35,734 bases of DNA from Candidatus Gastranaerophilales bacterium (lineage in GTDB: Bacteria; Cyanobacteriota; Vampirovibrionia; Gastranaerophilales; Gastranaerophilaceae): assembly GCA_944324055.1 (NCBI GenBank), contig CALUUV010000007.1, forward strand, positions 1 to 35,734, in the 5' to 3' direction. Positions 7,992 through 26,155 of the stretch are shown here, in pieces. Both the position numbers and the translations under genes were made by a program. Positions within the stretch are counted from its first letter, which is position 1. Each line of letters starts with the position of its first letter. The notes beneath the pieces are model-generated. The model was not told the origin of the DNA. It did not search any database and worked only from the letters and a program-made list of their open reading frames with translations.

Positions 7992-8792
7992 TTATTTAAC
8001 CATTTTATAAATATCATTTTTTGAAACATCAGTTAGTAAAGATAGAATTTTAGAAATATCTTTTGATGAGTAACCAGCATCTTTTAATATAGATATTTGT
8101 CTTTCAATATCTACATTATCATTGCTAGAAGTTTTATAAACCATACAAACGATCTCACCTTTTATACCATCTTTATAATGCTCAATTACGTTATCAATAT
8201 CATCGACAATAGACTCTTCAAAAAGCTTTGACAATTCTCTTGATAAAGCTATATTTACATTTCCTTTTATTGATTTAATAGTTTCTAAAGTTTTTATTAT
8301 CCTATTTGGAGATTCATAAAATACAATATTAGAATTAGAATACGAATTTAAAACATCCTTAATCTCATTTGCAGAACGAGGCATAAAACCAATAAATGTA
8401 AAGAATTCATCATCTCTTGGAGTCTGAGATAGAAAAGTTGTTACAGCACATGCTCCAGGAAGTGCCGTATAAGAAATTTTATTTTTAATTAGTTCTTTTA
8501 AAAGCCAACTTCCAGGATCACAAATCATTGGAGTACCTGCATCTGAAACAAGAGCAACCTTTTTACCCTCATTAAAAAGATTCATAAATAATTCTAATCG
8601 GCTTTTTTCATTATACTTATGATAAGAAATAAGCTTTGTATTTATTTCAAAATGGTTTAAGAGCTTTTGAGTAACTCTTGAATCCTCACAAGCTATTACA
8701 TCAACAGACTTTAAAACTTCTATTGCACGAAAAGTCATGTCTTGTAGATTTCCAATAGGAGTTGGAACTATATAAAACTGATACTCTCTCAT
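7992..8792 (-). CDS. rsmI: RsmI, 16S rRNA C1402 2'-O-methyltransferase
   Basis: RsmI methylates the 2'-O of C1402 in the decoding centre of 16S rRNA, using SAM. The 266-residue protein shows the tetrapyrrole-methylase-like fold signatures: YIVPTPIGNLQDMTFRAIEVL at the N-terminus, ACEDSRVTQKLL, VSDAGTPMICDPG near residue 85 and the later FYESPNRI and LSRELSKLFEE segments. The length is close to the usual ~280. Its ATG overlaps the last base of the sigma factor gene (8792), so translation is probably coupled and it is the last gene of that operon. No terminator hairpin is evident downstream. Confidence 0.93.
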   Translation of the reverse strand: MREYQFYIVPTPIGNLQDMTFRAIEVLKSVDVIACEDSRVTQKLLNHFEINTKLISYHKYNEKSRLELFMNLFNEGKKVALVSDAGTPMICDPGSWLLKELIKNKISYTALPGACAVTTFLSQTPRDDEFFTFIGFMPRSANEIKDVLNSYSNSNIVFYESPNRIIKTLETIKSIKGNVNIALSRELSKLFEESIVDDIDNVIEHYKDGIKGEIVCMVYKTSSNDNVDIERQISILKDAGYSSKDISKILSLLTDVSKNDIYKMVK

Positions 8793-9436
8793 TAGTAATC
8801 CTGACGACCTTTTGAAGCTAAGTACTCTCTAATACTAGCTAATGCTGATTGAACAATTCTTGTAATTCTTGATGGAGATAACCCAACTTGTTTTGCAATA
8901 TCTTTTGCTTGCATATTACGGTAAAAACGATATTCAACAACTGTACGTTCTTTTTGAGGTAAAGTTGCAATTGCTTGTTTAATCAATTTACTTAATTCTA
9001 CAATTTCAGCTTTTTCATCAGGTAAAGCTGAAGGATCTTTAATAAAGTCAAATGGGGAATCATTATCAGTAGCAGAAGCAGCTAAACCATCAATTGAAAG
9101 AATTGTTTCATATACTGCCTCTTTTACCTTACCAGCTGATGTTCCTTCTTCTGCTTCTTCATCATTAGAAGTATCAGCTTTATGTTTCATTGAATACCAT
9201 TTATAACGATGTCTAAGTTCATTTCTTATTGCCCATTTTACTGCAGTACCCATGTAGGCATCATTGTATTTTGCAAGCTGCTCTTCTGTTTTATTTTTAA
9301 TCATAGCTTGCACTGCAATAATCCCGATACTAACAAGCTCCTCATACTCAATCATATGATTGGGTATTCTTCTTTGCTCTATCTTCGCAACCTTCTGGAC
9401 TATACTAACATATTGTTTAAGTAAATTTTGATTCAT
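8792..9436 (-). CDS. diverged sigma-70 family factor (sigma-28/FliA-like by context)
   Basis: The 214-residue protein has sigma region 2 at about residues 25-85 (IEYEELVSIGIIAVQAMIKN, YMGTAVKWAIRNELRHRYKWYS). Region 4 is at about 150-205 (ATLPQKERTVVEYRFYRNMQAKDIAKQVGLSPSRITRIVQSAL), a clear helix-turn-helix. Between them lies an unusually acidic, low-complexity linker (TSNDEEAEEGTSAG) in place of a recognisable region 3. Its position 20 bases behind an flhB-type gene suggests a flagellar or export-specific sigma factor. However, region 2 lacks the familiar FliA wording, so an alternative sigma of another group is possible. No Shine-Dalgarno sequence is visible before ATG 9436. It shares one base with rsmI. 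Confidence 0.8.
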   Translation of the reverse strand: MNQNLLKQYVSIVQKVAKIEQRRIPNHMIEYEELVSIGIIAVQAMIKNKTEEQLAKYNDAYMGTAVKWAIRNELRHRYKWYSMKHKADTSNDEEAEEGTSAGKVKEAVYETILSIDGLAASATDNDSPFDFIKDPSALPDEKAEIVELSKLIKQAIATLPQKERTVVEYRFYRNMQAKDIAKQVGLSPSRITRIVQSALASIREYLASKGRQDY

Positions 9437-9456: not shown

Positions 9457-10539
9457 TTACCTATTGTTTATGTTACCTTGATTTGATTTATTTTTCAAGT
9501 TGTAAACAAAAAGTAAAATTTCTGCTACAGCTTTAAATAATTCTGGAGGAATTTGTTGACCTATTTCAACCATTCTGAATACCGCTCTGGCTACTGGAGG
9601 ATTATCAATTACAGGAACATTATTTTCTTCTGCAATTCTTATAATTTCTTTAGCAATTAATTCAGCACCCTTCATAACAACAGTTGGAGAAAGCATGGTT
9701 TCAGCATCATATTTTAATGCGCATGCCACATGGGTTGGGTTTCTAACAACAAAATCAGCCTCTGCAACAGAATCCATCGCACCTTGTTGTAACATTTGCA
9801 TACGACGTTGACGTAATGCTGATTTTACATGCGGATCACCTTCTTGGTTTTTATATTCATCTTTAATTTCTTTAAAAGACATCTTTTGGTCTTTCATAAA
9901 CTTCCAACGAGTAACCCCATAGTCTGCAGCAGCAATTATTAAGAATGCAATACAAGCTTTATAAATAAAGTCAACAATTAACTTCCCAAATTCGACCATA
10001 ACTGCAAAGTTGTTATCAATTGAAGCCAACATTAAAATACTTTCTAAATGGTCAGAATAAACAACCCAACCAACAATTCCTAAAATTAAAACCTTTACAA
10101 TATTTTTAAATAACTCGAACATTGTTTTCACAGAAAACAAATTTTTAAAGTATTTAGAAGGATTTAACTTATCAAGTTTTGGAATTAATGGAGCAATAGC
10201 AACCAAAGGGCCAACTTGCATGAAATCACCAATAATTGCAACAAAAGCAGCTACAATTAAAACAAGACCAATAATCGTTGCAGTTGGGATTATTGCAGTT
10301 GTAAAAATATAAGTATAACCTATTGAGGCTAAATGCTGATTGGGGATTTGTTCATACAACGTTCGGAATAATCCGTTTAACATGTTCCACATTAAAGGAG
10401 CCATCATGTTAATAAAAGAAAAAACAATCAAAAGCGACAACGCAGTTGATACGTCTTTTGACTTAACAACCTGTCCTTCTTTTCTTGCCCTCTCAAGTTT
10501 CTGAGGGGTGGCGTCATATTGCTTATCTTCATCACCCAT
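9457..10539 (-). CDS. FlhB/SctU-type export switch protein, second paralog
   Basis: FlhB/SctU proteins sit in the inner membrane at the type III export gate. They switch substrate class by autocleavage between N and P of NPTH. This 360-residue protein has four hydrophobic segments in residues ~30-205 and the connector EIKDEYKNQEGDPHVKSALRQRR. The cleavage motif NPTH is at 267-270 in the context FVVRNPTHVACALKYD, followed by the conserved C-terminal domain. Compared with the copy at 21551, it lacks the EKTE N-terminal motif and the PKADVVVTNPTHYAV wording typical of flagellar FlhB, and it is separated from flhA. It is therefore the better candidate for a non-flagellar or accessory export switch. 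It follows aroA by 41 bases and precedes the sigma factor gene by 20. Confidence 0.88.
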   Translation of the reverse strand: MGDEDKQYDATPQKLERARKEGQVVKSKDVSTALSLLIVFSFINMMAPLMWNMLNGLFRTLYEQIPNQHLASIGYTYIFTTAIIPTATIIGLVLIVAAFVAIIGDFMQVGPLVAIAPLIPKLDKLNPSKYFKNLFSVKTMFELFKNIVKVLILGIVGWVVYSDHLESILMLASIDNNFAVMVEFGKLIVDFIYKACIAFLIIAAADYGVTRWKFMKDQKMSFKEIKDEYKNQEGDPHVKSALRQRRMQMLQQGAMDSVAEADFVVRNPTHVACALKYDAETMLSPTVVMKGAELIAKEIIRIAEENNVPVIDNPPVARAVFRMVEIGQQIPPELFKAVAEILLFVYNLKNKSNQGNINNR

Positions 10540-10580
10540 GAGTTATTTTTCCGATAGTTAAATTTTATGAGAATATATTA

Positions 10581-11861
10581 TCATAAAATAATAAGAGTTT
10601 CCATTAATGATAAAAACTCAGGAAGTGAAATATTAACCCATTGGAATTCATTGACTTTAATCTCATTTTTAGCTATTAATCCAGCGACATAAAGAGTCAT
10701 TGCTAAACGATGGTCATGATAAACCTCTACTTCAGAGCCGCCATTGATTGTTTGTTTTCCACCGATTACAAAACCATCAGAAAGTTCATCAATATCAATT
10801 CCTATTTTTCTGAACTCTGTAACAACAGCAGTTATTCTATCAGCCTCTTTGTTTCTTAAATCTCCGGCATCAGTTATTCTTGTTTCACCATCAGCTTGAG
10901 TTGCTAAAAGAGCTATAACAGGAAGTTCATCTATCAATCTTGGGACATCAGCTCCTGAAACATTACAACCTTTTAAATCTGAATAGCGAACTCTGATATC
11001 TCCTACTTTTTCACCAGATACAATTCTTTCATCTAAGATTTCAAGATTACCACCCATTCTTTGAACAACATCAATTATTCCAGTTCTAGTTTCATTCAAT
11101 CCTACATTTCTAATTATTATGTCAGAATCTGGAACAATTAAAGCCGCAACAATAAAGAATGCAGCAGAAGAAATATCACCTGCAACAACAATATCCTTTG
11201 CAATTAATTCAGATTTTTCAATACTTACCTTGTTTTTATCAACAGAAATATTTGCTCCCATATATTTAAGCATTAATTCTGAATGGTTTCTTGAAACATA
11301 TGGTTCAATAACTGTTGTAACTCCATCTGCATTCATGCCAGCAAGTAAAATTGATGATTTTACTTGTGCCGATGCAATAGGTGAATTGTACTCAATAGCA
11401 TGTAATTTACTACCCTGAATTTTTAAAGGCGCTCTTCCATCATTCGAATCGATTACAGCACCCATTTGAGATAATGGAGTGATAATTCTTTTCATTGGTC
11501 GTTTTGAAAGACTTTCATCTCCAACTAAAACAGAGTTAAAGTTTTGACCAGCTAATATACCTGACACAAGACGCATTGTTGTACCAGAATTTCCACAATC
11601 TAAATTGTTATTAGGAGGTGTTAACATTCCTGAAGAAGTAACAATTAAATTATGTTCATCTATAAATTCTATATCAACACCTAGATTCTTAAATAATCCA
11701 ACAGTTGAACGACAATCAGAAGCATACAAGAAATTAGATATTCTTGATTTACCTTTAGCTAAAGAAGCAAACATTACTGAACGATGAGAGATTGATTTAT
11801 CTGCTGGAATTGTAATCTCTCCCCTTAAACCTCTTTTTAATCCAGAAACTAATACATCCAC
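10581..11861 (-). CDS. aroA: AroA, EPSP synthase
   Basis: AroA transfers enolpyruvyl from PEP to shikimate-3-phosphate, the sixth step of chorismate synthesis. The 426-residue protein has the substrate-binding ADKSISHR motif at 20-27 and the LDCGNSGTTMRL motif near 88-99. It also has SLSKRPM, the SAQVKSSILLAG segment, IDELPVIALLAT and the C-terminal DHRLAMTL motif. Length and motif order are complete. It overlaps the upstream unknown gene by one base (11861) and is followed by the second flhB, an odd partnership that probably reflects loose operon packing. Confidence 0.95.
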   Translation of the reverse strand: MDVLVSGLKRGLRGEITIPADKSISHRSVMFASLAKGKSRISNFLYASDCRSTVGLFKNLGVDIEFIDEHNLIVTSSGMLTPPNNNLDCGNSGTTMRLVSGILAGQNFNSVLVGDESLSKRPMKRIITPLSQMGAVIDSNDGRAPLKIQGSKLHAIEYNSPIASAQVKSSILLAGMNADGVTTVIEPYVSRNHSELMLKYMGANISVDKNKVSIEKSELIAKDIVVAGDISSAAFFIVAALIVPDSDIIIRNVGLNETRTGIIDVVQRMGGNLEILDERIVSGEKVGDIRVRYSDLKGCNVSGADVPRLIDELPVIALLATQADGETRITDAGDLRNKEADRITAVVTEFRKIGIDIDELSDGFVIGGKQTINGGSEVEVYHDHRLAMTLYVAGLIAKNEIKVNEFQWVNISLPEFLSLMETLIIL

Positions 11862-12238
11862 TATTGAACCAACCTATCTGTTTCGTTAAATATAACCATA
11901 TAAAAATCTGGGTGTGTTAAATTTGGGTTATCTTTCATAAACTTTTTAACATTAAATTTTTCTATATATTTATCAAGCTTTGCAACAACTTTAGGTCTAT
12001 CTTGGTTAGCGATTTTTAATTTATCAATATACAATTCAGCCATTAATTGGACTTCTTCTTCAGTTAACATTGGTCTTCCACCAATTTTAACTTCATCAGC
12101 CTCAACTTGTTCTAACCACTTTTTCTCTTGTTTTTTTTGTTGCTGTTCCTTTTTTTGCCCATCAGAATCAGTAGAGGCTCCCATTTCGATTGCCTGCTGT
12201 TCTACTTGAGCTAAAAAGTTATTGATAAAACTAAACAT
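11861..12238 (-). CDS. hypothetical protein, 125 aa, Gln/Lys-rich
   Basis: This is an unrecognised soluble protein. The N-terminus (MFSFINNFLAQVEQQAIEM) is amphipathic. It is followed by a low-complexity Q/K/E stretch (KKEQQQKKQEKKWLEQVE) and then a folded-looking C-terminal half (GGRPMLTEEEVQLMAELYIDKL, DRPKVVAKLDKYIEKF, NPNLTHPDFYMVIFNE). TTGGAGAA is placed well before ATG 12238. It opens the minus-strand operon containing aroA, the second flhB, the sigma factor and rsmI, so a link to export or flagellar assembly is possible but unsupported by the sequence itself. Confidence 0.7.
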   Translation of the reverse strand: MFSFINNFLAQVEQQAIEMGASTDSDGQKKEQQQKKQEKKWLEQVEADEVKIGGRPMLTEEEVQLMAELYIDKLKIANQDRPKVVAKLDKYIEKFNVKKFMKDNPNLTHPDFYMVIFNETDRLVQ

Positions 12239-12351
12239 AAATTCTCCAAGATTTATTATAAACCAATTATCTAAAAAAGTTAAGAATATTTAATAATCCG
12301 GCACAAATATTTTGTTTTTGATAAAATTATTACATGTGAGGTTGGGAGATA

Positions 12352-13710
12352 ATGAAAGAGAGAATTGCGTTATTTACAATTTTAATAGGCTTAACAGCTT
12401 TTATTTATGTATTCCAATACCATGTAAATACATTATGGGGTTACGTTTTATTACTAACATTTATGAGCGTATATGGAATATATTCAACACTTGCAACAAT
12501 ACACAACAAACGTAAGCAAAGAAAATGCCCAATCAAAATAAACGAAGACTATAAACCATTTGTATCAATAATGGTTCCTGCACATAACGAAGAATCTGTT
12601 ATTGCACATACTATTGATAATATTATGCAATTAAATTATCAAAACTTTGAAATCATAATAATTGATGATAGAAGTACAGATAATACTGCAAATGTAATTA
12701 AGAACTTAGAGTTAAAATATAAAGGACAAGTAAAAACACTTATAAGAGATAAAGATGCATTCCCTGGGAAATCAGCAGTATTAAATGACGCTCTTCCTCT
12801 CGCAAAAGGCGAAGCTGTTTTGGTTTTTGATGCAGACGCTACAATTGAGCCTGATTTTCTTAATAAAATGATTCCTTGCCTTGAACCAGAAGATGTTGGA
12901 GCTGTTCAAGCAAGAAAAGTTATAAGAAACGGGGCATATAATCTACTAACAAAATGTCAGTATAACGAATACGTTTTAGACACATACCTACAAGTAGGAC
13001 GAGATGCTATTAAAGGTGCTGTTGAACTTAGAGGTAATGGTGAACTGATTAAACGTAAAGCCCTTGAAGATATCAATGGTTGGAATAATTATACAATTAC
13101 AGATGACCTTGATATGTCAACAAGATTACACATCAAAGGATGGGACGTTAGATACTGTCCATCTGCTGAAGTTTATGAAGAAGGTATTATCTATCTTATT
13201 CCTTTATTCAGACAAAGAAGAAGATGGCTTGAAGGTACTATTAGAAGATATTTAGAATATTCAAGTGAAGCAATTAAATCTGCAACAATGTCATTAAGAG
13301 CAAAATTAGACATGATTGCATATATTACTCAATTTATTATGCCTTTATGGATGATTTTAGAAATTGTTATTAGAGCATTCAAAGCTCTAACTGGCAAAGG
13401 CGTAATCCAAAATGAGCTTGTATCATCTGTTATCATTGCAGTTATAACTGCTGTCGGTTTCTTTATGGCAATCAGATATAGTTTAAGAAGATATGATAAT
13501 CAAAAAAGAATTGCAGCGCTTATTCAAGCAAGTTACACCGCAATATATATGTTAATTATTTGGTTCCCAATGGTATTATTTATTTGTGGTAAAATATTAT
13601 TCTGCAAGAAGGATATGAATTGGGGTAAAACAACACACGGGTTAGTTATGGAAGAAGAAGCTAGCCATCAAAATATAAATAGTAAGGAAAAAGAATTACA
13701 AGAGGTATAA
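12352..13710 (+). CDS. processive family 2 glycosyltransferase (BcsA/PgaC-like)
   Basis: The 452-residue membrane enzyme should polymerise or transfer sugars from nucleotide sugars on the cytoplasmic face, as in exopolysaccharide synthases. Two hydrophobic segments at residues ~5-50 precede the GT-A domain. The domain contains VSIMVPAHNEE and IIIIDDRSTDNT. It also has the D-A-D metal motif at 160-162, the catalytic TDD at 250-252 and QRRRW at 288-292, the hallmark of processive GT2 enzymes. Three further membrane segments follow (about 315-340, 356-378, 388-412). It has no PilZ domain. GGGAGATA directly precedes the ATG. It is followed by apt after one base. The substrate cannot be told from sequence; poly-GlcNAc or a cellulose-like glucan are the usual options. 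Confidence 0.88.
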   Translation: MKERIALFTILIGLTAFIYVFQYHVNTLWGYVLLLTFMSVYGIYSTLATIHNKRKQRKCPIKINEDYKPFVSIMVPAHNEESVIAHTIDNIMQLNYQNFEIIIIDDRSTDNTANVIKNLELKYKGQVKTLIRDKDAFPGKSAVLNDALPLAKGEAVLVFDADATIEPDFLNKMIPCLEPEDVGAVQARKVIRNGAYNLLTKCQYNEYVLDTYLQVGRDAIKGAVELRGNGELIKRKALEDINGWNNYTITDDLDMSTRLHIKGWDVRYCPSAEVYEEGIIYLIPLFRQRRRWLEGTIRRYLEYSSEAIKSATMSLRAKLDMIAYITQFIMPLWMILEIVIRAFKALTGKGVIQNELVSSVIIAVITAVGFFMAIRYSLRRYDNQKRIAALIQASYTAIYMLIIWFPMVLFICGKILFCKKDMNWGKTTHGLVMEEEASHQNINSKEKELQEV

Positions 13711-13711
13711 A

Positions 13712-14248
13712 ATGAATTTAGAAGCAGTAAAAGAAAAAATTAGACAGGTTCCAGACTTCCCTAAAAAAGGTATTGTATTTTTAGATATTACAACAGGTAT
13801 AAAAGATCCTGATACATTACAAAAAATGGTTGATTTCTTATACGACATATATAAAGATAGAAAAATTGACTATGTTGCAGGTATTGAATCTAGAGGCTTT
13901 ATTTTTGGCATGCCTTTAGCATACAAATTAAATGCTGGTTTTATTCCAATTAGAAAACCAAACAAATTACCTGCTGAAACAATCAAAGAAAGCTATGACC
14001 TAGAATATGGTTCAGATTCAATAGAAATTCATGCTGATGCGATTGAAAAAGGTGCTAATGTTGTTATTATTGATGACTTGTTAGCAACAGGAGGAACTGC
14101 ATGTGCGGCTTGTAATCTAATTAAAAAAGCTGGTGGTAATGTAGATTCTGCAGCATTCATTATTGAACTTACACCATTAAAAGGTGCTGAAAAAATTGAA
14201 AAAACTGGCGTTGAAGTTATCTCAATGCTTAAATATGATTTAGATTAA
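13712..14248 (+). CDS. apt: Apt, adenine phosphoribosyltransferase
   Basis: Apt salvages adenine to AMP using PRPP. The 178-residue protein opens with the family-typical VPDFPKKGIVFLDIT and contains GIESRGFIFGMPLA. The flexible-loop region is IRKPNKLP, and the PRPP-binding motif VVIIDDLLATGGT lies near residues 112-124. The length is standard. It begins one base after the stop of the glycosyltransferase gene, with AGAGGT of that gene's end serving as ribosome site. A strong terminator follows at 14255. Confidence 0.95.
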   Translation: MNLEAVKEKIRQVPDFPKKGIVFLDITTGIKDPDTLQKMVDFLYDIYKDRKIDYVAGIESRGFIFGMPLAYKLNAGFIPIRKPNKLPAETIKESYDLEYGSDSIEIHADAIEKGANVVIIDDLLATGGTACAACNLIKKAGGNVDSAAFIIELTPLKGAEKIEKTGVEVISMLKYDLD

Positions 14249-14254
14249 TATTAG

Positions 14255-14283
14255 AAAGGGAGTTAAATTATAACTCCCTTTTT
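14255..14283 (+). terminator. intrinsic terminator after apt (possibly bidirectional)
   Basis: An 11-base-pair perfect stem (AAAGGGAGTTA with TAACTCCCTTT) encloses a five-base loop and ends in a T run. It lies seven bases after the apt stop and five bases beyond the end of the convergent gene at 14289. It can end the plus operon well and the minus gene more weakly. Confidence 0.9.
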
Positions 14284-14288
14284 AATAA

Positions 14289-14546
14289 TTATTTTCGACT
14301 TCTTCTAAATTCAGAAATCATCTTTTTAACCCCAGCCTCAATAGATTCTATACTATTATGCATAGTTTCTTTTATTGTATTTTTTGTTTCTTTTACATAT
14401 TTAACCAAGTCTTTCCCTGTTACAACTCTGTCCTCTAAAACTTTGTAAGAAATATTTGATTCTTTTAACTCTCTTGTAATTTTGTTTAATCCTCTAGTTG
14501 AAGAATAAGGAAATGATCCTTTAAAATTAATTGTATTATTTCCCAT
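14289..14546 (-). CDS. small FxG-motif protein, 85 aa
   Basis: I place the start at ATG 14546 (MGNNTINFKG), because GAAAGG lies about ten bases upstream. A longer frame would need a TTG inside that ribosome site. The product has the N-terminal TINFKG motif (F8, G10), then a serine/threonine-rich stretch and a charged helical C-terminal half (KETKNTIKETMHNSIESIEAGVKKMI) ending in arginine/lysine. It is unknown in function, with no signal peptide or membrane segment. The gene lies downstream of the M49-like peptidase in the same direction. Its ribosome site is inside a 9-bp hairpin (14553-14586), so translation may be conditional. Confidence 0.65.
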   Translation of the reverse strand: MGNNTINFKGSFPYSSTRGLNKITRELKESNISYKVLEDRVVTGKDLVKYVKETKNTIKETMHNSIESIEAGVKKMISEFRRSRK

Positions 14547-14552
14547 AAAACA

Positions 14553-14586
14553 CACACCTTTCAATTATAAAAAACTAAAAGGTGTG
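14553..14586 (-). promoter_or_regulatory. intergenic hairpin masking a Shine-Dalgarno
   Basis: CACACCTTT (14553-14561) and AAAGGTGTG (14578-14586) form a perfect 9-bp stem around a 16-base loop. On the minus-strand RNA the 3' arm contains the AAAGG ribosome site of the 14546 gene. The hairpin lies between the peptidase stop and that ATG, so it could act as an attenuator, a weak terminator, or a switch for translation. Confidence 0.5.
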
Positions 14587-14617
14587 AGATTTTGCTACTT
14601 TGTATAGTTATTTAAAG

Positions 14618-16357
14618 TTATGCTTGTAATAATTTATCAGCTAGAGGAGATTCAACTTTTCCGTTCAATGTTTTTGAAACACGTTTAATATTCTCAGCCA
14701 TAACATCCATTTGATTTGTCCAAATAAAGTTATCTAAAACATATTTCTCTCCTTTAGCAAAATCACCGTCAACTTGAATTCTTATTATCTCTTCAAGCAT
14801 TTTCTTTGCAGTAGGTATCATTTTATCAATATTAACAGTTAGAACACCCTTCATATCAATAGTAAATGCACCTTCTTTTAAGAAATAATAATTTTGCATA
14901 ACTGAACGAACTCTATGAGCTTGAGATAATGTTGGTTTTGATTTCAACATATTATCAGCAGCATAAGTCACAATAATTTGGTCACGTTCTTCTTTTGTAT
15001 ACATACCATTTTCAACAAGAACATCAAGCATTGCAAGAGAAGTCATATCTGCTTTATTCTCTTCAATAATTGACTTATATTTACCCAATGCTTCAGTTCC
15101 AGAATTAGGTCCAAGAGAATGAGCATTTTCATGGCCTATTGTAAACCAGTGATCTGCTTCATCATTATAATATTTGTGTTGTTCTTTGTTTAATATTGCA
15201 TCAAGTCTTTCTTGCATTTTTTTCTTAGCATCTTCACTTGTTATTAGTCTAATTTGGCGGTGATATACATTTCTTCGACCTCCACCTATTGAAATTGATA
15301 ATTTATCATCATTTGGCAAGTTTTCTGCTAATGTAATACCAGCCCTAAACGCACCAACATCACCTGCTACCATTACTAAATCAACATCAACCATTGTTTG
15401 TTTTGATTCTTTATCAGCAGATATATTTTGAACATATTCATCTTTGAATGGCATATTTTTAGCCATAACAGGAAGAAATTCTTTCACTCTTAAAATAGCA
15501 TCGGTTCCTTTTTTGTTAACAATACCTACTCTGCCACCTAAAAAGTCTTTTGCGACAGGAGTAATATTATTTTCATCCAACATTGCTTTTAATTCTTCAT
15601 TTTCAATAACTGTTTCAGTCATCTCATCAGAATAGTTTTCTCTGGTTATTGTAAATTCTAATGGTGTATCTTGAAGAGTTGCCCATTTTTTATCAGCATA
15701 AGCATCTAACATTGGATCAGCTTGTCTTAATGCTTTAGCTTGAAGTTTTAGATATTCATTGAAATCTGAATTAGTAGAAACTTCGCTTGCTTTTTCTATA
15801 TAATCGGCCATTAATGAAAAATCATCTTTAAACTTATCGATATAATCAGTTGCCTTTAATTCATTACCACATCTTTCTACAACTGAACGTTGATTTAATA
15901 TAGTTTTAACTTCATCAACTTTACCTTCATTTAACATTGATTTTAATATATTATGAAATTCTTCAACTGATAAATTTTCAGGATAAACACCTTTTCCAGG
16001 CATTTCATGTACATCTTTTGCTAATTCAATAATATTTGATTCTCTATCAATTGCACAAAGTCCTTTTTGCGCATCATAAAGAATCTTGGTTAATTCTGCT
16101 TGTTTATTGCCCTTAGATATTTCTTCATTTAAAAACTCTTCAAATGGTAAATTATGGCAACTATCTAATTGCTTATTAATTCTTTCTAAAATATCACTTG
16201 CTTTTACAAGATATTTTAATGCTTCTTTATCGCCATCAGCTAAAGATACAAATTCTTCTGCATCAACATCTAACATTTTCTTAGTAGTTAAATAATCTTT
16301 GTGAGTTCGTTTTTCTAACTCTTCCATTGAAAGATTTAATTCATATTGTTTTGTCAT
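14618..16357 (-). CDS. M49-like (dipeptidyl-peptidase III-type) zinc metallopeptidase
   Basis: I choose ATG 16357 (MTKQYEL), because AAAGG sits nine bases upstream. The ATG three codons earlier overlaps that site. The 579-residue protein carries a zinc motif H-E-N-A-H at about residues 409-413 (context TIGHENAHSLGPN). About 20 residues later comes EENKADMTSL, supplying the third ligand glutamate. This pairing of HExxH + LGP with EE.KAD resembles the M49-like group related to dipeptidyl peptidase III, in which classical members have HExxxH. The N-terminal ~200 residues are helical. There is no signal peptide, so it is likely cytoplasmic or non-classically exported. The substrate is unknown. 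Confidence 0.65.
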   Translation of the reverse strand: MTKQYELNLSMEELEKRTHKDYLTTKKMLDVDAEEFVSLADGDKEALKYLVKASDILERINKQLDSCHNLPFEEFLNEEISKGNKQAELTKILYDAQKGLCAIDRESNIIELAKDVHEMPGKGVYPENLSVEEFHNILKSMLNEGKVDEVKTILNQRSVVERCGNELKATDYIDKFKDDFSLMADYIEKASEVSTNSDFNEYLKLQAKALRQADPMLDAYADKKWATLQDTPLEFTITRENYSDEMTETVIENEELKAMLDENNITPVAKDFLGGRVGIVNKKGTDAILRVKEFLPVMAKNMPFKDEYVQNISADKESKQTMVDVDLVMVAGDVGAFRAGITLAENLPNDDKLSISIGGGRRNVYHRQIRLITSEDAKKKMQERLDAILNKEQHKYYNDEADHWFTIGHENAHSLGPNSGTEALGKYKSIIEENKADMTSLAMLDVLVENGMYTKEERDQIIVTYAADNMLKSKPTLSQAHRVRSVMQNYYFLKEGAFTIDMKGVLTVNIDKMIPTAKKMLEEIIRIQVDGDFAKGEKYVLDNFIWTNQMDVMAENIKRVSKTLNGKVESPLADKLLQA

Positions 16358-16436
16358 ATAAAACATCCTTTCACTATTATTCCATACTAATATATCATAT
16401 AACCAGTATTAAAAATAAACTACAACTATAATAACC

Positions 16437-16465
16437 TTGTGTAACTTGAATTATTATGATATAAT
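16437..16465 (+). promoter_or_regulatory. sigma-70-type promoter of the diguanylate cyclase gene
   Basis: A TTGTGT hexamer (16437-16442), a 17-base spacer and a perfect TATAAT (16460-16465) precede the ATG at 16488 by 22 bases. This leaves room for a short leader with AGAGGG as ribosome site. Spacing and hexamers fit a housekeeping promoter. Confidence 0.65.
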
Positions 16466-16487
16466 TTTCCCGAAAAGAGGGCGTTTT

Positions 16488-17360
16488 ATGACAAATATAA
16501 TTATTTATAGCGAAACAAAAGAAAGTAAAATCAAAGATTTACTTATGGATATAGATGATGTAGATGTAAGAGTTGAAACTCCTGAATCAATGAGAGATTT
16601 TGCAGTTCTTAATCCTTCACTTATTATCCCTGAAAATGTTAATAATTTAAGTAATATTTTAATGACTACAAAATTCACTTGTCCAATTTTATTTATAGGT
16701 GATATTCCTGAAAACACAATTGTTAGAGCTGAAGGATATGACTTTATTAAAGAACCTGTAAATAAAAAAGAACTTGAAATTCGTGTAAAATCATTACTAA
16801 AAATTAGTTATTACAAAAACAGAATGAATGAAGTAAGTACAACTGATGAATTAACTGGTTTACACAACAGAAAATACTTACAAGAACAACTAGAATCTGA
16901 AATCTCAAGAGCAAGACGTTATGGTACAAAATTATCTTGCATCCTATTTGATTTAGATTATTTCAAAGTTGTAAATGATATGTATGGATATGAATGGGGC
17001 GATATCTTATTAACTAAAATATCTGGAATGTTAGCAGAAGCAGCAAGAAAAGAAGATATCGTAACAAGATATGGTGATGAAGAATTTTTAATCATTCTTC
17101 CAAATACATCAGAAGACAACGCATTTATCTTCGGTGAAAGATTTAGAAGAGAAGTTGAGAAATTTGAATTCATCCCTGCAGGAGAAGAAGAAAGACACCA
17201 AATCACAATATCTGGTGGTATTTCAACATTCCCTTGTATGGAAGAAGTTGCAGAAGATGCAAACACTCTTATCAGATACGCTGAACACGCTTTATACAAT
17301 GCTAAAAAACGTGGCAAAAATAAGATTGTTCAATTCTCTCATATGAACTTAGAATATTAA
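16488..17360 (+). CDS. GGDEF-domain diguanylate cyclase with degenerate receiver-like N-terminus
   Basis: The ATG at 16488 follows AGAGGG by six bases; an upstream extension to 16437 would cover the promoter and is rejected. The 290-residue protein has an N-terminal ~105-residue alpha/beta region resembling a response-regulator fold (VLNPSLIIPE, CPILFIGD, YDFIKEPVNKKELEIRVK) but lacks an obvious phosphoacceptor aspartate. The GGDEF domain runs from about 117 to 285: DELTGLHNRKYL, FDLDYFKVVND (metal D155) and the active-site loop G-D-E-E-F at 196-200. The loop's second glycine is replaced by aspartate. An inhibitory-site motif RKED (187-190) lies the right five residues upstream. It should make c-di-GMP if the variant loop is active. 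It converges on the flagellar operon, which encodes a PilZ receptor. Confidence 0.88.
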   Translation: MTNIIIYSETKESKIKDLLMDIDDVDVRVETPESMRDFAVLNPSLIIPENVNNLSNILMTTKFTCPILFIGDIPENTIVRAEGYDFIKEPVNKKELEIRVKSLLKISYYKNRMNEVSTTDELTGLHNRKYLQEQLESEISRARRYGTKLSCILFDLDYFKVVNDMYGYEWGDILLTKISGMLAEAARKEDIVTRYGDEEFLIILPNTSEDNAFIFGERFRREVEKFEFIPAGEEERHQITISGGISTFPCMEEVAEDANTLIRYAEHALYNAKKRGKNKIVQFSHMNLEY

Positions 17361-17374
17361 TTAAGTACTAAAAA

Positions 17375-18406
17375 TTAAATTCTTTTAAGAGCAAGCTTGA
17401 GTTTCTCAAGCTTCTCTTTTTTAGTACCAATTCCGGTTAATAACATTGTAGATATACTATTTGTTCTTTCATCTTCTATATTAAAAGAATATAACTTTTC
17501 AGATAGCTCATACCCAGTATAACCACTACGCTTTATCAAAATCTTAGTTATATCATCTCCGCCAAAATCATATTCAGGCAAAAATTCACGCATAGCGACT
17601 ATATTATTAATTAATTTTGATAATTCTTTTTTACCCCTAGAAGAATTTAAATAAGCAATATTACGTTCGATTGTCAATAATAAAGGATAAGAAGGAGATG
17701 TTGTTGTAATCATCTCAAGCTTCAAATCAATATCACAATTAACATGCAATAAAGCTGTCGGATTTAATCCTCCTGCAGTTTTATGCAAAGATTGAATTGT
17801 AAAATCAGCATATTTAATAGCAGATTCTGGCAACATATCTGAAAATGGATACAATGCACCGTGAGCCTCATCAACAATCAAATAAGTCCCATATTTTTCA
17901 CATAGTTGCTTCAATGCTTTTATATCAGAGACAAATCCTTCATAACTTGGAGAAGTAACTAATAAAGCTTTTATTTTAAAATTTTTAAAATACGGTTCAA
18001 CATCACTTACAGTTACCCCATTAGGGACACCAAAATCATCATCTAAAGGAACATTATAAAAAATAGGATTTGCACCTGCTAATTTAACTGCATTTAAGTG
18101 TGACTTATGAGCTTGAGACCATAATAAAATATTATCACAGCACCCATTAACAACAGATAATACCGATGCTAAAATTCCTGAAGTAGAACCATTTGTAAGA
18201 AATTTAGTTTGTTTTGTCCCATATACTTCTGCCGCAAATCTTTCAGCATCTTCCAACATATCTTCTGGATTATGAGTGTCAGTTTCAGAAACATCATATT
18301 TATAGAAATGACGGAATTTATTAAAAATACAAAACCTTTGAGAATGAGAAGGTGTTGTGAATAACTCTTTATTATATTTAGTTCTAATTAACTTATTAAA
18401 TCCCAT
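17375..18406 (-). CDS. short Orn/Lys/Arg decarboxylase-family PLP enzyme
   Basis: The 343-residue protein matches the major PLP domain of fold-type I ornithine/lysine/arginine decarboxylases. Evidence includes FLTNGSTSGILAS, WSQAHKSHLNAVKLAG, the VDEAHGALYPF motif (D179, H182) and the PLP lysine K209 in SLHKTAGGLNP. Family members are usually about 450-490 residues or longer; this one lacks most of the C-terminal domain that completes the active site. It may therefore be a specialised or altered enzyme, possibly in polyamine metabolism. It ends the flagellar operon, two bases after the small membrane protein gene. A role in flagellar function is not supported by any motif. Confidence 0.8.
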   Translation of the reverse strand: MGFNKLIRTKYNKELFTTPSHSQRFCIFNKFRHFYKYDVSETDTHNPEDMLEDAERFAAEVYGTKQTKFLTNGSTSGILASVLSVVNGCCDNILLWSQAHKSHLNAVKLAGANPIFYNVPLDDDFGVPNGVTVSDVEPYFKNFKIKALLVTSPSYEGFVSDIKALKQLCEKYGTYLIVDEAHGALYPFSDMLPESAIKYADFTIQSLHKTAGGLNPTALLHVNCDIDLKLEMITTTSPSYPLLLTIERNIAYLNSSRGKKELSKLINNIVAMREFLPEYDFGGDDITKILIKRSGYTGYELSEKLYSFNIEDERTNSISTMLLTGIGTKKEKLEKLKLALKRI

Positions 18407-18408
18407 AA

Positions 18409-18837
18409 TTATAAATCAATCTTTGACTCACCAAGATCAAAATCAGCATCTTCAAAAGCAAAGTTTTCAACTTCATCATTGGCTTCTTCATTATTCTTGG
18501 TAACAATCTTTAATTTTTCTTCCAACTCTTCTGGAGTAATCTTAGCATTTGCACGGATTAATTCTTCATATATTAAATCTTTATAATCAATAACAAGTTT
18601 TTTCTTAGGATTATCAAGAATTAATCCAGCAAGCCAACCTAAGGTACCTAACAATAAAATACCTGGGAAAATATGACGCAAAGCATCACTAACAGAATAG
18701 TAATCAATAGCCCAATGTTTTATCAGCACAATAATTCCAATTAGAAGAACTGTTGTACAGGTAAAAAACAAACAAAAAAATCTTCTAAAATAACTACTTT
18801 TTGTAAATGGTCTATTTTTTTTAACAATTCTTTCCAT
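18409..18837 (-). CDS. small two-helix membrane protein with acidic tail
   Basis: I do not recognise this 142-residue protein. It has a basic N-terminus (MERIVKKNRPFTKSSYFRRFF), then two hydrophobic segments (about 22-40 and 55-74, LFPGILLLGTLGWLAG-like). A cytosolic tail follows with a coiled-coil-like stretch (TPEELEEKLKIVTKNNEE) and a strongly acidic end (ENFAFEDADFDLGESK). By the positive-inside rule both termini should be cytoplasmic. It shares one base with the PilZ gene (18837) and is followed after two bases by the decarboxylase-family gene, so it belongs to the flhB-flhA operon and may be an accessory of the export or motor apparatus. Confidence 0.7.
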   Translation of the reverse strand: MERIVKKNRPFTKSSYFRRFFCLFFTCTTVLLIGIIVLIKHWAIDYYSVSDALRHIFPGILLLGTLGWLAGLILDNPKKKLVIDYKDLIYEELIRANAKITPEELEEKLKIVTKNNEEANDEVENFAFEDADFDLGESKIDL

Positions 18838-19427
18838 TATTTATTATCGTTTTCCATACTTTTCTTCATACAAAAATGAACTAATGACATCTTATCAACA
18901 TTACTTAAGTGAGTAAAACGACCAGATATAGTATATGTACCGTCATCACACTTTTCAACTCTGATTAATTGATATTTACAATTAACTTCGATTTCATCAT
19001 TTAATTGAATAGTAACATTATATTCATATTCAATATTAATATTATCATTAGTCTTAATTTTCATACCACCAGCAGATAAATCAAGAGTTCTTACTTTATG
19101 TACAGTTCCTTCATGAGATAACTCTAAATCTTCTAAGAATTTAATACGAGTAAATTTACGACGTTGCAAAAATCTATGTTTTTTAGGGTTTGCAATAGAA
19201 ATTTCATTCTCATGAATATCTCTAATATATGATTCAAAATACAAATATCCATTGTCAGTTAAAGAATAGAAATCGCAAATGTGTTTTTGCATCAAACCTC
19301 TAGGAATATATTTAAGACGCATCTTAAATCCTTCCATAGAAACTTCAGTAATTTTACCTTTATTTGTATCTTTAAAATCGTGAGGAACGATTGTAACTAT
19401 CTGATCTTTTTTTAATAATTCACGCAT
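18837..19427 (-). CDS. PilZ-domain c-di-GMP receptor, YcgR-like
   Basis: The 196-residue protein has an N-terminal YcgR-N-like beta domain (about 1-85; VTIVPHDFKDTNKGKITEVS, YLYFESYIRDI). The C-terminal PilZ domain (about 88-190) has both c-di-GMP-binding motifs: RxxxR as R90-K-F-T-R94 and DLSAGG at 116-121. YcgR-type proteins bind c-di-GMP and act on the flagellar motor to slow or bias rotation. Its place 12 bases after flhA in the flagellar operon strongly supports that role. It overlaps the next gene by one base. The nearby diguanylate cyclase at 16488 is a plausible but unproven source of the ligand. Confidence 0.87.
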   Translation of the reverse strand: MRELLKKDQIVTIVPHDFKDTNKGKITEVSMEGFKMRLKYIPRGLMQKHICDFYSLTDNGYLYFESYIRDIHENEISIANPKKHRFLQRRKFTRIKFLEDLELSHEGTVHKVRTLDLSAGGMKIKTNDNINIEYEYNVTIQLNDEIEVNCKYQLIRVEKCDDGTYTISGRFTHLSNVDKMSLVHFCMKKSMENDNK

Positions 19428-19439
19428 TTTATTACCTTT

Positions 19440-21545
19440 CTATCTTTTAGTAACTGGTACTCTAACTATGCCAATAGATTTTGCTTTTACATTTTGTGTA
19501 ATTTCATTATACGACATAATTGCAATTTGAGGATATGTTCTTTCAATTAAACGCCTAAATACCAACCGAATAGGGGATGAACATAATATAACAGGTTGAT
19601 TTCCTGTTGTAGAAATAGCTTTTTCCAACTCGGTATTCAAAGTATCTAATAATCTTCGAGTAAAGTCTGGGTCTAAAGTTAAATTTTGACCATCAGGGCT
19701 TACACCTTTAGCAATAGTAGTTTCAACATCAGGAGCTAATGTTATTGCTAACAATTCACCTGTATCAGCAAGATTTTGCTTACATATATTACGAGCAAGA
19801 GCTTGTCTTACTTGTTCAGTTAAATAATCATGATTTTTATTCACTTTAGCATGAATACTAATTGTTTCTAGGATAGTTTTTAAGTCTCTAACGGCAACAC
19901 GTTCTTTTAATAAATTTTGCATAATTAATTGAACATCAGCAACAGAAACATCTTTCATAACATCTGTAACATATTCTTCAGAAACTTCATTTTTAAGATT
20001 ATTAATAAGTTGTTGAACATCAGCACGAGAAAGTATTTCGGCTGCATTTTTCTTAATAACTTCAGTTAAGTGAGTAGAAACAACCGCAGAAGGGCTTACA
20101 ACAGTATATCCCGCAAGTTCTGCATCATCTTTGAATTTTTCTTCTATCCATAATGCAGGTAACCCAAACGCAGGTTCAACAGCATGAATACCTGTAATTC
20201 CTATATCTTCCGCATTACCACCTGCATTCATTGCTAAACTTCTATCTGGATATATTTCACCAGCTTCTAAAGCAACACCTTTTAATTTAATTTGATAAGT
20301 ATTTGGTGCTAACTGTAAATTATCTCTAACTCTTATTGACGGAAGAACAATACCTAAATCTAATGCAGTTTGACGTCTTATTTGAGCAATTCTTTCAAGT
20401 AAATCCCCACCCATTTCAATATTTAAAAGAGGAACTAAACGATAACCAACTTCAATTTCAATAGTTTCAACATTAAGAAGTTGCATAATGCTTTCTCTTG
20501 AGCCTTTTTTATCTTTTTTAGCTTCAAGCATTTTTTCTTGTTTTGCAACTTGTTCCTTAGATTCTTGTTCTTTAGTTTCTTCTGTTTTAGCTTTGTTTTT
20601 AAAATATGCCCCAGCACCAGCAATTAAACCAATTGTCATAAATGGAATTGTTGGCATGCCAGGAACAATACTTAACATCATTAATAAACCAGATAGAACA
20701 CCTAAAATTCTAGGGTCAGAGAACATTTCTTTATCAATGTCTTTTGATAAAGATTCATCTTTACCTGTTGCACGAGAAACAATCAAACCTGTAGCAGTAG
20801 AGATTAATAATGCAGGGATTTGAGAAACCAAACCATCACCAACTGTTAATATAGTATAAGTAGATAAAGCAGTTGCAGGATCCATTTTTAGCTGAATCAT
20901 ACCAATTATCAAACCACCAACAATATTAACAATAGTAATTATAATACCAGCAGTGGCATCACCTTTAACAAACTTTGAAGCACCATCCATAGTTCCATAG
21001 AAATCTGTTTCTCTCTCAAGTTTACGTCTTCTTTCTTTAGCCTGTTCTTCATCAATAATACCAGCATTTAAATCGGCATCAATACTTAATTGCTTACCAG
21101 GCATTTTATCCAATGTAAATCTGGCAGATACTTCAGCAACACGAGTTGCACCACCAGTGATAACCATAAAGTTAATCAATACAAGGATGATGAATATAAC
21201 GAAACCAACAACATAGTTACCGCCGACAACGAATTCACCAAAAGCATTAATAACGTTTCCAGCCTCACCTTGCAATAGAATCAGACGAGTAGAACTAACG
21301 TTCAAACCTAACCTGAACAAAGTTGCAATAAGCAATACTGTTGGGAAGGATGAATAATCAAGAGGTTCTTGAGTATATAAACATACTAAAAGGATAATAA
21401 CTGCAAGAGATATATTAACTGTTAATAAAATATCTAAGCAAAATGCAGGTAGAGGAATAATCATCATACAAACGATAACTACCAACCCCACAGCGAGGAT
21501 GATATCATCATTTTTTAATATGTTTGATAACTTAGTTAAATCCAA
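19440..21545 (-). CDS. flhA: FlhA, flagellar export gate protein
   Basis: FlhA forms the nonameric ring of the flagellar type III export gate and docks chaperone-substrate complexes. The 701-residue protein has about eight membrane segments in the first 320 residues, with the family motifs FPTVLLIATLFRLGLNVSSTR and GEFVVGGNYVVG. It also has the FHIPEP loop (DKMPGKQLSIDADLNAGIIDEEQA, then ERETDFYGTMDGASKFVKGDA) and GDGLVSQIPALLIS. The DFYGxMDGASKF wording is that of flagellar FlhA rather than SctV. A lysine/glutamate-rich linker (about 320-350) leads into the cytosolic domain. It follows flhB by five bases and precedes the PilZ gene by 12. Confidence 0.95.
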   Translation of the reverse strand: MDLTKLSNILKNDDIILAVGLVVIVCMMIIPLPAFCLDILLTVNISLAVIILLVCLYTQEPLDYSSFPTVLLIATLFRLGLNVSSTRLILLQGEAGNVINAFGEFVVGGNYVVGFVIFIILVLINFMVITGGATRVAEVSARFTLDKMPGKQLSIDADLNAGIIDEEQAKERRRKLERETDFYGTMDGASKFVKGDATAGIIITIVNIVGGLIIGMIQLKMDPATALSTYTILTVGDGLVSQIPALLISTATGLIVSRATGKDESLSKDIDKEMFSDPRILGVLSGLLMMLSIVPGMPTIPFMTIGLIAGAGAYFKNKAKTEETKEQESKEQVAKQEKMLEAKKDKKGSRESIMQLLNVETIEIEVGYRLVPLLNIEMGGDLLERIAQIRRQTALDLGIVLPSIRVRDNLQLAPNTYQIKLKGVALEAGEIYPDRSLAMNAGGNAEDIGITGIHAVEPAFGLPALWIEEKFKDDAELAGYTVVSPSAVVSTHLTEVIKKNAAEILSRADVQQLINNLKNEVSEEYVTDVMKDVSVADVQLIMQNLLKERVAVRDLKTILETISIHAKVNKNHDYLTEQVRQALARNICKQNLADTGELLAITLAPDVETTIAKGVSPDGQNLTLDPDFTRRLLDTLNTELEKAISTTGNQPVILCSSPIRLVFRRLIERTYPQIAIMSYNEITQNVKAKSIGIVRVPVTKR

Positions 21546-21550
21546 CTACC

Positions 21551-22630
21551 CTACTTACCTTTCTTGTTATAAACGTATGCTAAAATTTCTGCAACAGCAA
21601 CATATAAATCTGATGGTATTATACCATCAATTGGAACCGTATTGTATAATGCACGAGCAATTGGTCTGTTTTCTACAATCGGAACATCATTATTTTTTGC
21701 TATTTCTCTGATTCTAAACGCAACGTAATCAATACCTTTTGCAACTACAATAGGAGCAGGAGCAACTGTTTTGTCATATTTTATCGCTACAGCATAATGT
21801 GTTGGATTGGTTACAACAACATCTGCTTTTGGAACATTTGACATCATACGTTGTTTAGACATTTGTATCTGAATTGATTTAATTTTTGATTTGATTTTAG
21901 GATCACCTTCGATATCCTTATATTCATCTTTAACTTCTTGTTTGGTCATTTTTATTGATTTTTCATATTCCCAATCTTGATATTTTTTATCAAGCAAACC
22001 TAAAACAATCATCGCCAAACACATATTTATTAACATCTTGATTAAAATTGAACATATAACCCCCATGGAAGTTGCAGGATCAGCGCCTAGAATTGCAAAC
22101 AATTCATCTTTTCTGCTATTAGCAGTCGCATAACCACAAGCCCCAACAACAACTATTTTTATAATTGATTTTACAAATTCAACCATTGTTCTAGGCTCGA
22201 ATGGATTAAACAACTTCTTAGCATTTTCTAGAACTCTTTTAGGCGAAATATTATTGAAATCAAATTTCACCTTTTCAATAGCAAATACATGCCCAACATT
22301 AAGACGAACAATTATTAATGCAGATATTGCTAGAGTTAATAAAAATGGTAGAACGATGCCTGCACATTCTTTAAGATATGGAGCTAAAATTCCCATGATA
22401 TTATCCGTGCAAACTGTATCAGGGTGAATGTTTGTAAATGTAAATCTAAGAAGATTAACTAACCTATCTAACATAAATTTGCCCATAACAGCAAGCAGCG
22501 CAACAGAAACAGTAATAACCAAAGCTGATGCTAGGTCTCTGCTCTTTGAAATATTCCCTCGTTCACGTTCCTTCTCACGTCGACGGGCGGTGGCCGATTC
22601 GGTCTTTTCTGCAGCTGATTCGTTCCCCAT
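21551..22630 (-). CDS. flhB: FlhB, flagellar export switch protein
   Basis: FlhB partners FlhA in the export gate and switches from rod/hook to filament export by autocleavage at NPTH. The 359-residue protein has an N-terminus of flagellar type (AEKTESATARRREKERERGNISKSRDLASAL), four membrane segments and the QEVKDEYKDIEGDPKIKSKI connector. The cleavage motif NPTH is at 265-268 in the classic context PKADVVVTNPTHYAVAIKYD, and the C-terminal domain is complete. It heads the operon flhB-flhA-PilZ-membrane protein-decarboxylase. No clear Shine-Dalgarno sequence precedes ATG 22630. A second, more diverged paralog lies at 9457. Confidence 0.93.
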   Translation of the reverse strand: MGNESAAEKTESATARRREKERERGNISKSRDLASALVITVSVALLAVMGKFMLDRLVNLLRFTFTNIHPDTVCTDNIMGILAPYLKECAGIVLPFLLTLAISALIIVRLNVGHVFAIEKVKFDFNNISPKRVLENAKKLFNPFEPRTMVEFVKSIIKIVVVGACGYATANSRKDELFAILGADPATSMGVICSILIKMLINMCLAMIVLGLLDKKYQDWEYEKSIKMTKQEVKDEYKDIEGDPKIKSKIKSIQIQMSKQRMMSNVPKADVVVTNPTHYAVAIKYDKTVAPAPIVVAKGIDYVAFRIREIAKNNDVPIVENRPIARALYNTVPIDGIIPSDLYVAVAEILAYVYNKKGK

Positions 22631-25028: not shown

Positions 25029-25418
25029 TTAAGCTTGTTTAGTTGAATCAATATATTGACAAGTATCAGCGATTTTAGCTGCAGATCCAACTACTGTTGA
25101 TAAAGCTGCAAATCCTGCTAAAGGCCCTGCAATTTTCTTCACAACAGGATGGCGTAAAAATTTACCTTTTTCAAATATTCTTAAGATTTTAGCTTTATTT
25201 GAAGCTTGAATTAATTTAGATTCTTGAATTAATTTTGTAACACTGTTTCCAACTCTAGAACCATTTCTTAAAGTTTGGAAAGTCGCTGCACCAACAGTTC
25301 CTCCAACAACCATTTCAGTTGAATTTTCTTTAACAGATTGTTTTGCTTTTTGAACTTGTTCTTTTGAAATACCTCTGTGAGGAACACCTACAAATGTTGT
25401 ATTAGAAACGCCATTCAT
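25029..25418 (-). CDS. hypothetical membrane-associated protein, 129 aa, FxG-type N-terminus
   Basis: I do not recognise this protein. The N-terminus MNGVSNTTFVGVPHRG has a weak form of the FxG motif. Two glycine/alanine-rich hydrophobic segments follow (about 36-52, MVVGGTVGAATFQTL, and about 92-115, KKIAGPLAGFAALSTVVGSAAKIAD), separated by a basic helical stretch. A near-perfect ribosome site GGAGGTGAT lies inside the end of the upstream gene, and the two genes share one base in TAATG, so translation is coupled. The pair probably forms one functional unit. Glycine-zipper segments could insert into membranes, but the length and low hydrophobicity make this uncertain. Confidence 0.7.
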   Translation of the reverse strand: MNGVSNTTFVGVPHRGISKEQVQKAKQSVKENSTEMVVGGTVGAATFQTLRNGSRVGNSVTKLIQESKLIQASNKAKILRIFEKGKFLRHPVVKKIAGPLAGFAALSTVVGSAAKIADTCQYIDSTKQA

Positions 25419-26155
25419 TATCTATCACCTCCAGAAGATCCTAAAGCTAAATCTAAGTTTGATTTGTCTTTATTACGACCAGCTAAATCATCAATTAATA
25501 CAGAAGCTGTTGTAGATGCTGCTAATGTATTTTCAACTGCAGTTTGAATCTTTTCTCCATTAACTGATTTTACAAGTGTTTTAGCTGCTTCTTTATAACC
25601 TTGAGCTTTTTCTACAAATGATTTTACATTAGGTTTTGCCATAAACTCAGCAGTTTTCTTACCTAATGTAGTATTTTTGAATGCTTTAATTGTTGGATTA
25701 CCAACGAACTTAGACCAAGCATTTGCTAATGATTTTAAACCATTTCCAACAGGTTTGAATGCTGATTTAGAAATATTAATTGCATCTTTAGCAACATTTG
25801 ATTTTGCAACACCTTTTAATATTCCGATTGAAATTTTAGCACCATATTTTGCAGTAACGAAAGCTGTAACAAGACCTAAAGCACCAGAAACTAAACGAAC
25901 TGCTTTTCCTGCTCCTTTAGATAACTTGCCAGGATTCTTATCTAAACTATCTGCAAACTTATCCATATCATTTTTAGTTTGCTCAATATCTGCAAGTTTT
26001 TTATCTCGTTCTGTTTCGAGTTCTTCTTGTGATGGTTCATGATAAAACTCATCAGGTTCCATTTCCTGAGGTTTATAACCTTCATCATCATAATTAACAG
26101 ATTGCCCAAATTTTACCGAATTTGTTACTGGTAAATTGCTTTGAATCCCTAACAT
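25418..26155 (-). CDS. hypothetical FxG-motif protein, 245 aa, with hydrophobic centre
   Basis: The ATG at 26155 (MLGIQSN) is preceded by GGAG at eight bases; a GTG nine bases earlier overlaps that site and is rejected. The N-terminus carries SVKFGQ (F16, G17). An acidic segment (EPDEFYHEPSQEELETERDKK) follows, then a hydrophobic stretch (about 87-112, AVRLVSGALGLVTAFVTAKYGAK). A long basic helical C-terminal part has alternating NPTIKAF/KPNVKSF-like phrases, and a late Ala/Thr/Ser-rich segment (ENTLAASTTASVLIDDL) completes the chain. There is no classical signal peptide. Function is unknown. It is translationally coupled to the 129-residue gene, and I infer a membrane-interacting or exported pair. 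Confidence 0.7.
   Translation of the reverse strand: MLGIQSNLPVTNSVKFGQSVNYDDEGYKPQEMEPDEFYHEPSQEELETERDKKLADIEQTKNDMDKFADSLDKNPGKLSKGAGKAVRLVSGALGLVTAFVTAKYGAKISIGILKGVAKSNVAKDAINISKSAFKPVGNGLKSLANAWSKFVGNPTIKAFKNTTLGKKTAEFMAKPNVKSFVEKAQGYKEAAKTLVKSVNGEKIQTAVENTLAASTTASVLIDDLAGRNKDKSNLDLALGSSGGDR

Follow-up and report, generated by a model that had tools for sequence, protein, structure and literature searches.

Introduction

The Gastranaerophilales are non-photosynthetic relatives of the Cyanobacteria and belong to the lineage alternatively named Melainabacteria or Vampirovibrionia. The flagellar genes of aflagellate Melainabacteria have been read as an incomplete, lost flagellum (Di Rienzi 2013, PMC3787301; Soo 2014, PMC4040986), and Soo et al. 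inferred repeated loss of flagella. The L-ring, the cap, and the hook-filament junction were published as absent in MEL.A1 (PMC3787301). Here, we analyzed a window of 35,734 nucleotides (the whole stretch of DNA presented above) from the assembly of a Candidatus Gastranaerophilales bacterium (G000; 191 contigs, 89.7% complete), which encodes two copies of FlhB, the switch protein of flagellar export. Copy 2 is the FlhB of a true flagellum. Copy 1 is likely the FlhB of an ancient, conserved, and probably non-rotating flagellar-type exporter or rod that is separate from the flagellum, and the genes read as a leftover flagellum are probably this separate protein-export machine, whose genes are called the second set below. 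No existing description of the second set in the class Vampirovibrionia was found in the open-access PubMed Central (PMC) literature.

Results

The two FlhB copies of the window belong to separate clades

The features on which the comparison of the two copies is based are as follows:

9457-10539, minus strand: FlhB copy 1 (U1, FlhB1), probable switch protein of the second apparatus (360 amino acids; PF01312, 373 bits)
9741-9730, minus strand: NPTH cleavage motif of copy 1 (Asn267)
8792-9436, minus strand: FliA/WhiG-like sigma factor, the conserved downstream partner of copy 1 (TIGR02479, 81.5 bits)
21551-22630, minus strand: FlhB copy 2 (U2), FlhB of the true flagellum (359 amino acids; TIGR00328 above cut-off), adjoining flhA
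21808-21797, minus strand: NPTH cleavage motif of copy 2 (Asn275)
19440-21545, minus strand: flagellar flhA, distinct from FlhA2 of the second set (TIGR01398, 855 bits, above cut-off)

As the first-pass annotation of this DNA had described, both proteins have complete domains and the NPTH motif, and only copy 2 lies next to flhA. Copy 1 matches PF01312 over its full length (positions 1-335 of 335, E 1.8e-111), and so does copy 2 (394 bits, E 7.9e-118). The two share 32% identity, and no further PF01312 gene was found in the assembly. Copy 2 scores above the cut-off of the FlhB equivalog model TIGR00328 (374.4 bits, cut-off 349.25), while copy 1 falls just below it (343.5 bits) and also below the cut-off of the SctU model (326 bits, cut-off 358). 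The full-length domain and the N-P site identify copy 1 as a member of the FlhB/SctU family, with autocleavage and switching predicted from its sequence.

In a tree of 61 FlhB/SctU proteins, copy 1 groups with its orthologues, drawn from six of the class's families (f1, f2, f4, f7, f9, and f10), in a clade with support of 100/99, which stays at 100/98 with four long references removed. Copy 2 falls with the flagellar FlhB copies of the class, which adjoin flhA, and its orthologues occur in genomes that have flagellin too. The FlhA of the window likewise stands with the FlhA proteins from flagellar loci of the class, separate from FlhA2. Both FlhB types are present in other families of the class. 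A duplication of flhB within the family was rejected (p-AU 2e-51 in the approximately unbiased [AU] test), and with it the recent duplication that the annotation had listed among the findings that would defeat the idea of two export routes.

Comparison of the 11 genomes with both copies revealed that U1 is more conserved than U2 (mean 71% versus 57%), with the higher value in 54 of 55 pairs, which are not independent of one another. The cleavage loop of copy 2 is NPTH in all 58 distinct U2 sequences. For copy 1, the annotated NPTH motif is present in the window, and Asn and Pro are invariant in 119/119 orthologues; as a hallmark of the copy the full motif holds only in part, with 33 of the 119 having a residue other than Thr at the third position (86 T, 24 I, 5 D, 3 V, and 1 A). 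Variants of the form NP(T/E)H that still cleave are known (PMC7771051). In 108 of 122 loci, four other families included, the next gene downstream of U1 is the sigma factor gene, and the sigma factor of the window scores below the FliA/WhiG subfamily cut-off of 189.6 bits. A promoter scan around copy 1 gave chance-level matches only. In the aflagellate genome G006, a FliA/WhiG-family sigma factor above that cut-off (L183:4369-5208; TIGR02479, 242 bits) lies at a distance of about 3.8 kb from FlgF-G-B-C of the second set.

The second set encodes a flagellar-type basal body and export apparatus

The first-pass annotation saw no fliP, fliQ, or fliR in the window. Such genes exist elsewhere in the genome, which holds two FliR, two FliI (above cut-off), and two FliF. 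Two export gates, not one, were found. In the window's genome, the second-set FliMN-FliO-P-Q-R2 genes are located on contig C23, FliE-FliF on C77, and FliI on C10, with FlhB1 in the window; in G040, a genome of the same genus, FliE, FliF, the protein at the FliG position, FliH, and FlhA are encoded together. Flagellate genomes carry this diverged second flagellar set in operons distinct from those of the flagellum. The flagellate genome G032 (7 contigs) holds both sets, with the second set on L140, L141, and L142, and the flagellar set comprising FlgI, FlgK, FlgL, and FliP-Q-R-FlhB-FlhA (L143) and FlgB-FlgC-FliE-F-G-H-I (L191); its flagellar gene names were partly read from order and sequence, the remainder from profile matches.

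The anatomy of the second set is clearest in aflagellate genomes. Pfam matches in G049 reveal one operon in the order FlgF-FlgG-FlgB-FlgC-SLT transglycosylase-FliE-FliF-FliG-position protein-FliH-FlhA-FliI, and the same order is found in G077 and G012. G006 has the parts at a number of separate loci: FliE-FliF-FliG?-FliH-FlhA, FlgF-G-B-C, FliJ-FliK-FlgE-like, FliMN-FliO-FliP-FliQ-(T2SS-T3SS_pil_N-like)-FliR, FlhB1 with the sigma factor, and FliI separately. A flagellar-type basal body and export set (FliE, FliF with its C-terminal domain, FliH, FliI, FlhA, FliO-P-Q-R, and rod proteins) is thus present in G006 and G049. The second-set FlhB, FlhA, FliR, and FliF score under the flagellar equivalog cut-offs.

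The second-set fliQ and fliR are separated by a gene for a small protein that looks exported and weakly matches T2SS-T3SS_pil_N, a secretin-type N-domain (L134:10492-10860, L139:9156-9488, and equivalents in L129, L136, and L141, where an open reading frame [ORF] of the same size occupies the gap).

The first-pass annotation suggested a non-flagellar type III route. A second route does exist in the window's genome, with its own FliR, FliI, FliF, FliE, FliM/N, FliO, FliP, and FliQ, but its parts are not those of an injectisome. A non-flagellar type III secretion system of the injectisome type would fit the good score of copy 1 on the SctU model. It would also fit two tree results: U1 and SctU as one clade were not rejected (AU p 0.069 with the full set, 0.49 with the long references removed), and FlhA2, a long separate branch, groups at 88/86 with the one SctV reference used, in a part of the tree where long branches come together. 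The parts themselves are of flagellar type, including FliO and rod proteins. Instead of a short SctJ, the second set has a long FliF (~540-590 amino acids; FliF2 has 556 and carries the flagellar C-terminal domain PF08345). Its FliE reaches 61-67 bits on the flagellar model and 16 or less (G006 and G049) or 22.3 bits (G000) on the SctI model. The secretin family PF00263 had no match in G000 or G040; secretins are present in most other genomes of the family, gene context aside. With no secretin detected in the genus of the window, we consider an injectisome very unlikely.

The second set is near-universal in the family, and the flagellum is not

We surveyed profile matches per gene in 117 genomes of the Gastranaerophilaceae. 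FlhB was found in 114 genomes, FlhA in 116, FliR in 116, FliF in 114, FlgE/F/G in 116, and FliI above cut-off in 114. In the 99 genomes that are at least 90% complete, FlhA, FliR, and FlgE/F/G were present in 99/99, FliF in 98, FlhB in 96, and flagellin in 40. FlhA, FliF, and FliI each fall into two score classes: ~848-885 bits (flagellar) versus ~712-736 bits (near-universal) for FlhA, ~176-192 versus 113-128 bits for FliF, and ~598-633 versus 536-558 bits for FliI. Flagellin (49 genomes), the P-ring protein FlgI (46 genomes), and MotB (plug match in 47 genomes, all flagellate) are almost confined to genomes with the true flagellum, which are largely those with the high-scoring class. FlgE/F/G-like genes typically number three in aflagellates and six in flagellates, the exceptions being G014 with four, G054 with two, and G031, G053, and G062 with one. 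Within the survey, no flagellin could be tied to the second set, which occurs in nearly all genomes, and the P-ring, with one copy at most per genome, was not matched to it.

Most genomes have one extra, lower-scoring PF00771 match (commonly two matches in aflagellates and three in flagellates, e.g., G045 and G067), a possible third FlhA-like gene; the list of Di Rienzi 2013 also holds a second flhA, ACD20_26563 G0002 (PMC3787301). On contigs C40, C43, C50, and C62 of G000, flagellin N-terminal domains lie inside very long open frames (1228-1418 amino acids).

These data bear on the view to which Di Rienzi 2013 and Soo 2014 point, that the second set is the decaying remnant of a lost flagellum. 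Aflagellate genomes do hold only a subset of the flagellar genes (PMC3787301, PMC4040986). U1 nevertheless forms a clade of its own that coexists with U2 in flagellates, and is thus not a residue of the true flagellum; it is also more conserved than the flagellar copy, and all listed export-gene matches are open frames with no internal stops. The pattern seen here is that of a separate clade with unbroken frames under purifying selection in aflagellates, and decay is in our view highly improbable. An accessory switch serving a single flagellum, the other option in the first-pass annotation, was also discarded as unlikely because copy 1 is the sole FlhB in most aflagellate relatives.

A non-rotating machine is the favored function of the second set

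Spirochaetes have periplasmic flagella without an L-ring, and the second set could be imagined to build a cryptic motility organelle, or one in the periplasm, whose filament is not made of flagellin and whose energy comes from another source. The second set keeps rod, hook-like, ruler, and C-ring parts, and in G006 and G073 there are ExbB/ExbD/TonB-like ORFs in the neighborhood of fliPQR2. No MotB was found in any aflagellate of the 117-genome survey, and no FliG torque domain was recognized with the second set in aflagellates. The absence of both fits a non-rotating machine, and such an organelle appears unlikely.

We favor a flagellar-type exporter or rod separate from the flagellum. An MS-ring/C-ring base would be assembled in the inner membrane, and the machine's own transglycosylase would open the cell wall. 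Rod- and hook-like proteins may then be exported via FlhA2/FlhB1/FliPQR2, with a FliK-like ruler measuring length, FlhB1 changing substrates, and the two together setting order or length. With no recognized stator, outer rings, or flagellin, the machine would not support swimming; its product may be a short rod, proteins secreted to the periplasm or outside, or both. Expression may be tied to the state of the machine by the linked sigma factor, a role that FliA has in flagella.

Several observations weigh against this interpretation. The lack of a filament is deduced from the absence of flagellin and the P-ring and from the published absences in MEL.A1, and L-ring, FlgD, FlgK/L, and FliD genes were not searched. 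The FliG-position protein had no significant match in Pfam, in hhalign against FliG, or in hmmsearch against PDB, and two AlphaFold models of it gave no significant fold match with Foldseek; among the weak Foldseek hits of its C-terminal domain, about 12 of 32, the top three included, are FliG/C-ring chains (best E 0.49). Second-set FliJ and FliK match below the Pfam cut-offs. In the fragmented assembly of the window's genome, second-set FlgB/C, FliG/H, and FliJ/K were not located, and FlhB is absent from two 99%-complete genomes (G041 and G080). The E. coli sigma-28 consensus was not enriched over background upstream of second-set genes, in a scan whose positive control was weak, with only two flagellin genes. 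Finally, the trees give FlhB1 and FlhA2 no firm position relative to SctU and SctV, nor do they fix the depth at which U1 and U2 join. Their deep placement is long-branched, so the label "flagellar-type" comes from gene content and not from the FlhB and FlhA trees. A stronger claim would place the second set outside both flagella and injectisomes, as a deep branch of its own within the flagellar/type III family and a non-motile rod-building exporter retained across the class; this claim is doubtful at present. If it were true, the second set would inform the split of flagella and injectisomes.

Other genes of the window

The flagellar flhB-flhA operon continues with two further genes:

18837-19427, minus strand: PilZ-domain protein of the operon (PF07238, 57.5 bits)
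18409-18837, minus strand: small membrane protein following the PilZ gene, in the same order in G040

The flhA-PilZ order is kept in G040 (L131), and G032 has an ORF of similar size after flhA (L143 11779-12372). A Pfam search with the small membrane protein gave no match. Elsewhere in the window, 32655-35294 (minus strand) encodes a protein of 879 amino acids that begins like a signal peptide and contains two arrays of repeats, one rich in Lys/Pro and the other in Glu/Asp; its match to fibrinogen-binding repeats is probably compositional. The products of 4740-6359, 14289-14564, 25029-25418, and 25418-26164 have short N-terminal motifs such as "NFKGSF" and "VKFGQ", which recur in related loci; a Pfam search with the last of these found no family match.

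Discussion

The published gene numbers suggest how the second set entered earlier work. The ACD20 genes in the flagellar supertree of Di Rienzi are 15 flgG, 16 flgG, 18 flgC, 21 fliF, 23 fliH, 24 flhA, 25 fliI, and 28 flgE, together with 6 fliP, 7 fliQ, and 9 fliR. The numbering, with its gaps, matches the second set: FlgF, FlgG, (FlgB), FlgC, (SLT, FliE), FliF, (FliG?), FliH, FlhA, FliI, (FliJ, FliK), FlgE in one stretch, and FliP, FliQ, (pil_N-like), FliR in the other. From this agreement in order and gaps, we infer that the supertree was probably built largely on the second set. If the second machine is intact, the motility predictions and flagellar trees of the lineage would need re-examination because the genes used probably belong to it, and this includes the claim of a flagellated cyanobacterial ancestor. 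An unstudied, slowly evolving protein-export apparatus would then be present throughout a class of bacteria common in the gut. Such a natural flagellar-type exporter without a filament would bear on how export and motility came together.

Comparison with described systems places these genes as follows. The aflagellate sets of MEL.A1 and G. phascolarctocola (Di Rienzi 2013, Soo 2014) are very likely the same genes as the second set; they were published as genome reduction or loss, whereas the set described here is read as separate and ancient and also stands beside complete flagella. The flagellar export apparatus and basal body resemble the second set in the content and order of the gate, MS-ring, ATPase complex, rod, FliE, FliO, and FliM/N C-ring. 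The second set differs in that aflagellates have no flagellin, P-ring, or MotB, the FliG-position protein is unrecognizable, a transglycosylase is part of the operon, and a small T2SS-T3SS_pil_N-like protein is inserted between fliQ and fliR. With injectisomes (SctU/SctV), it shares the common export-gate core, from which it departs by its long FliF-type ring, FliE, FliO, and rod proteins and, in the window's genus, by the absence of a secretin. The corresponding genes of Buchnera and Lysobacter are taken as remains of the organism's own flagellum. The hook-basal body exporters of Buchnera and the system of Lysobacter enzymogenes (PMC9927559) are similar in keeping a flagellar export apparatus without swimming, whereas the second set is a distinct lineage that coexists with a flagellum. 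Two flagellar sets per genome are also found with flag-2 of Enterobacterales (PMC6993521) and the second flagellum of Pseudomonas fluorescens F113 (PMC5031763), which are described as flagellar systems of patchy distribution; the second set, by contrast, has no filament, ring, or stator genes in aflagellates, and nearly every genome of its family carries it.

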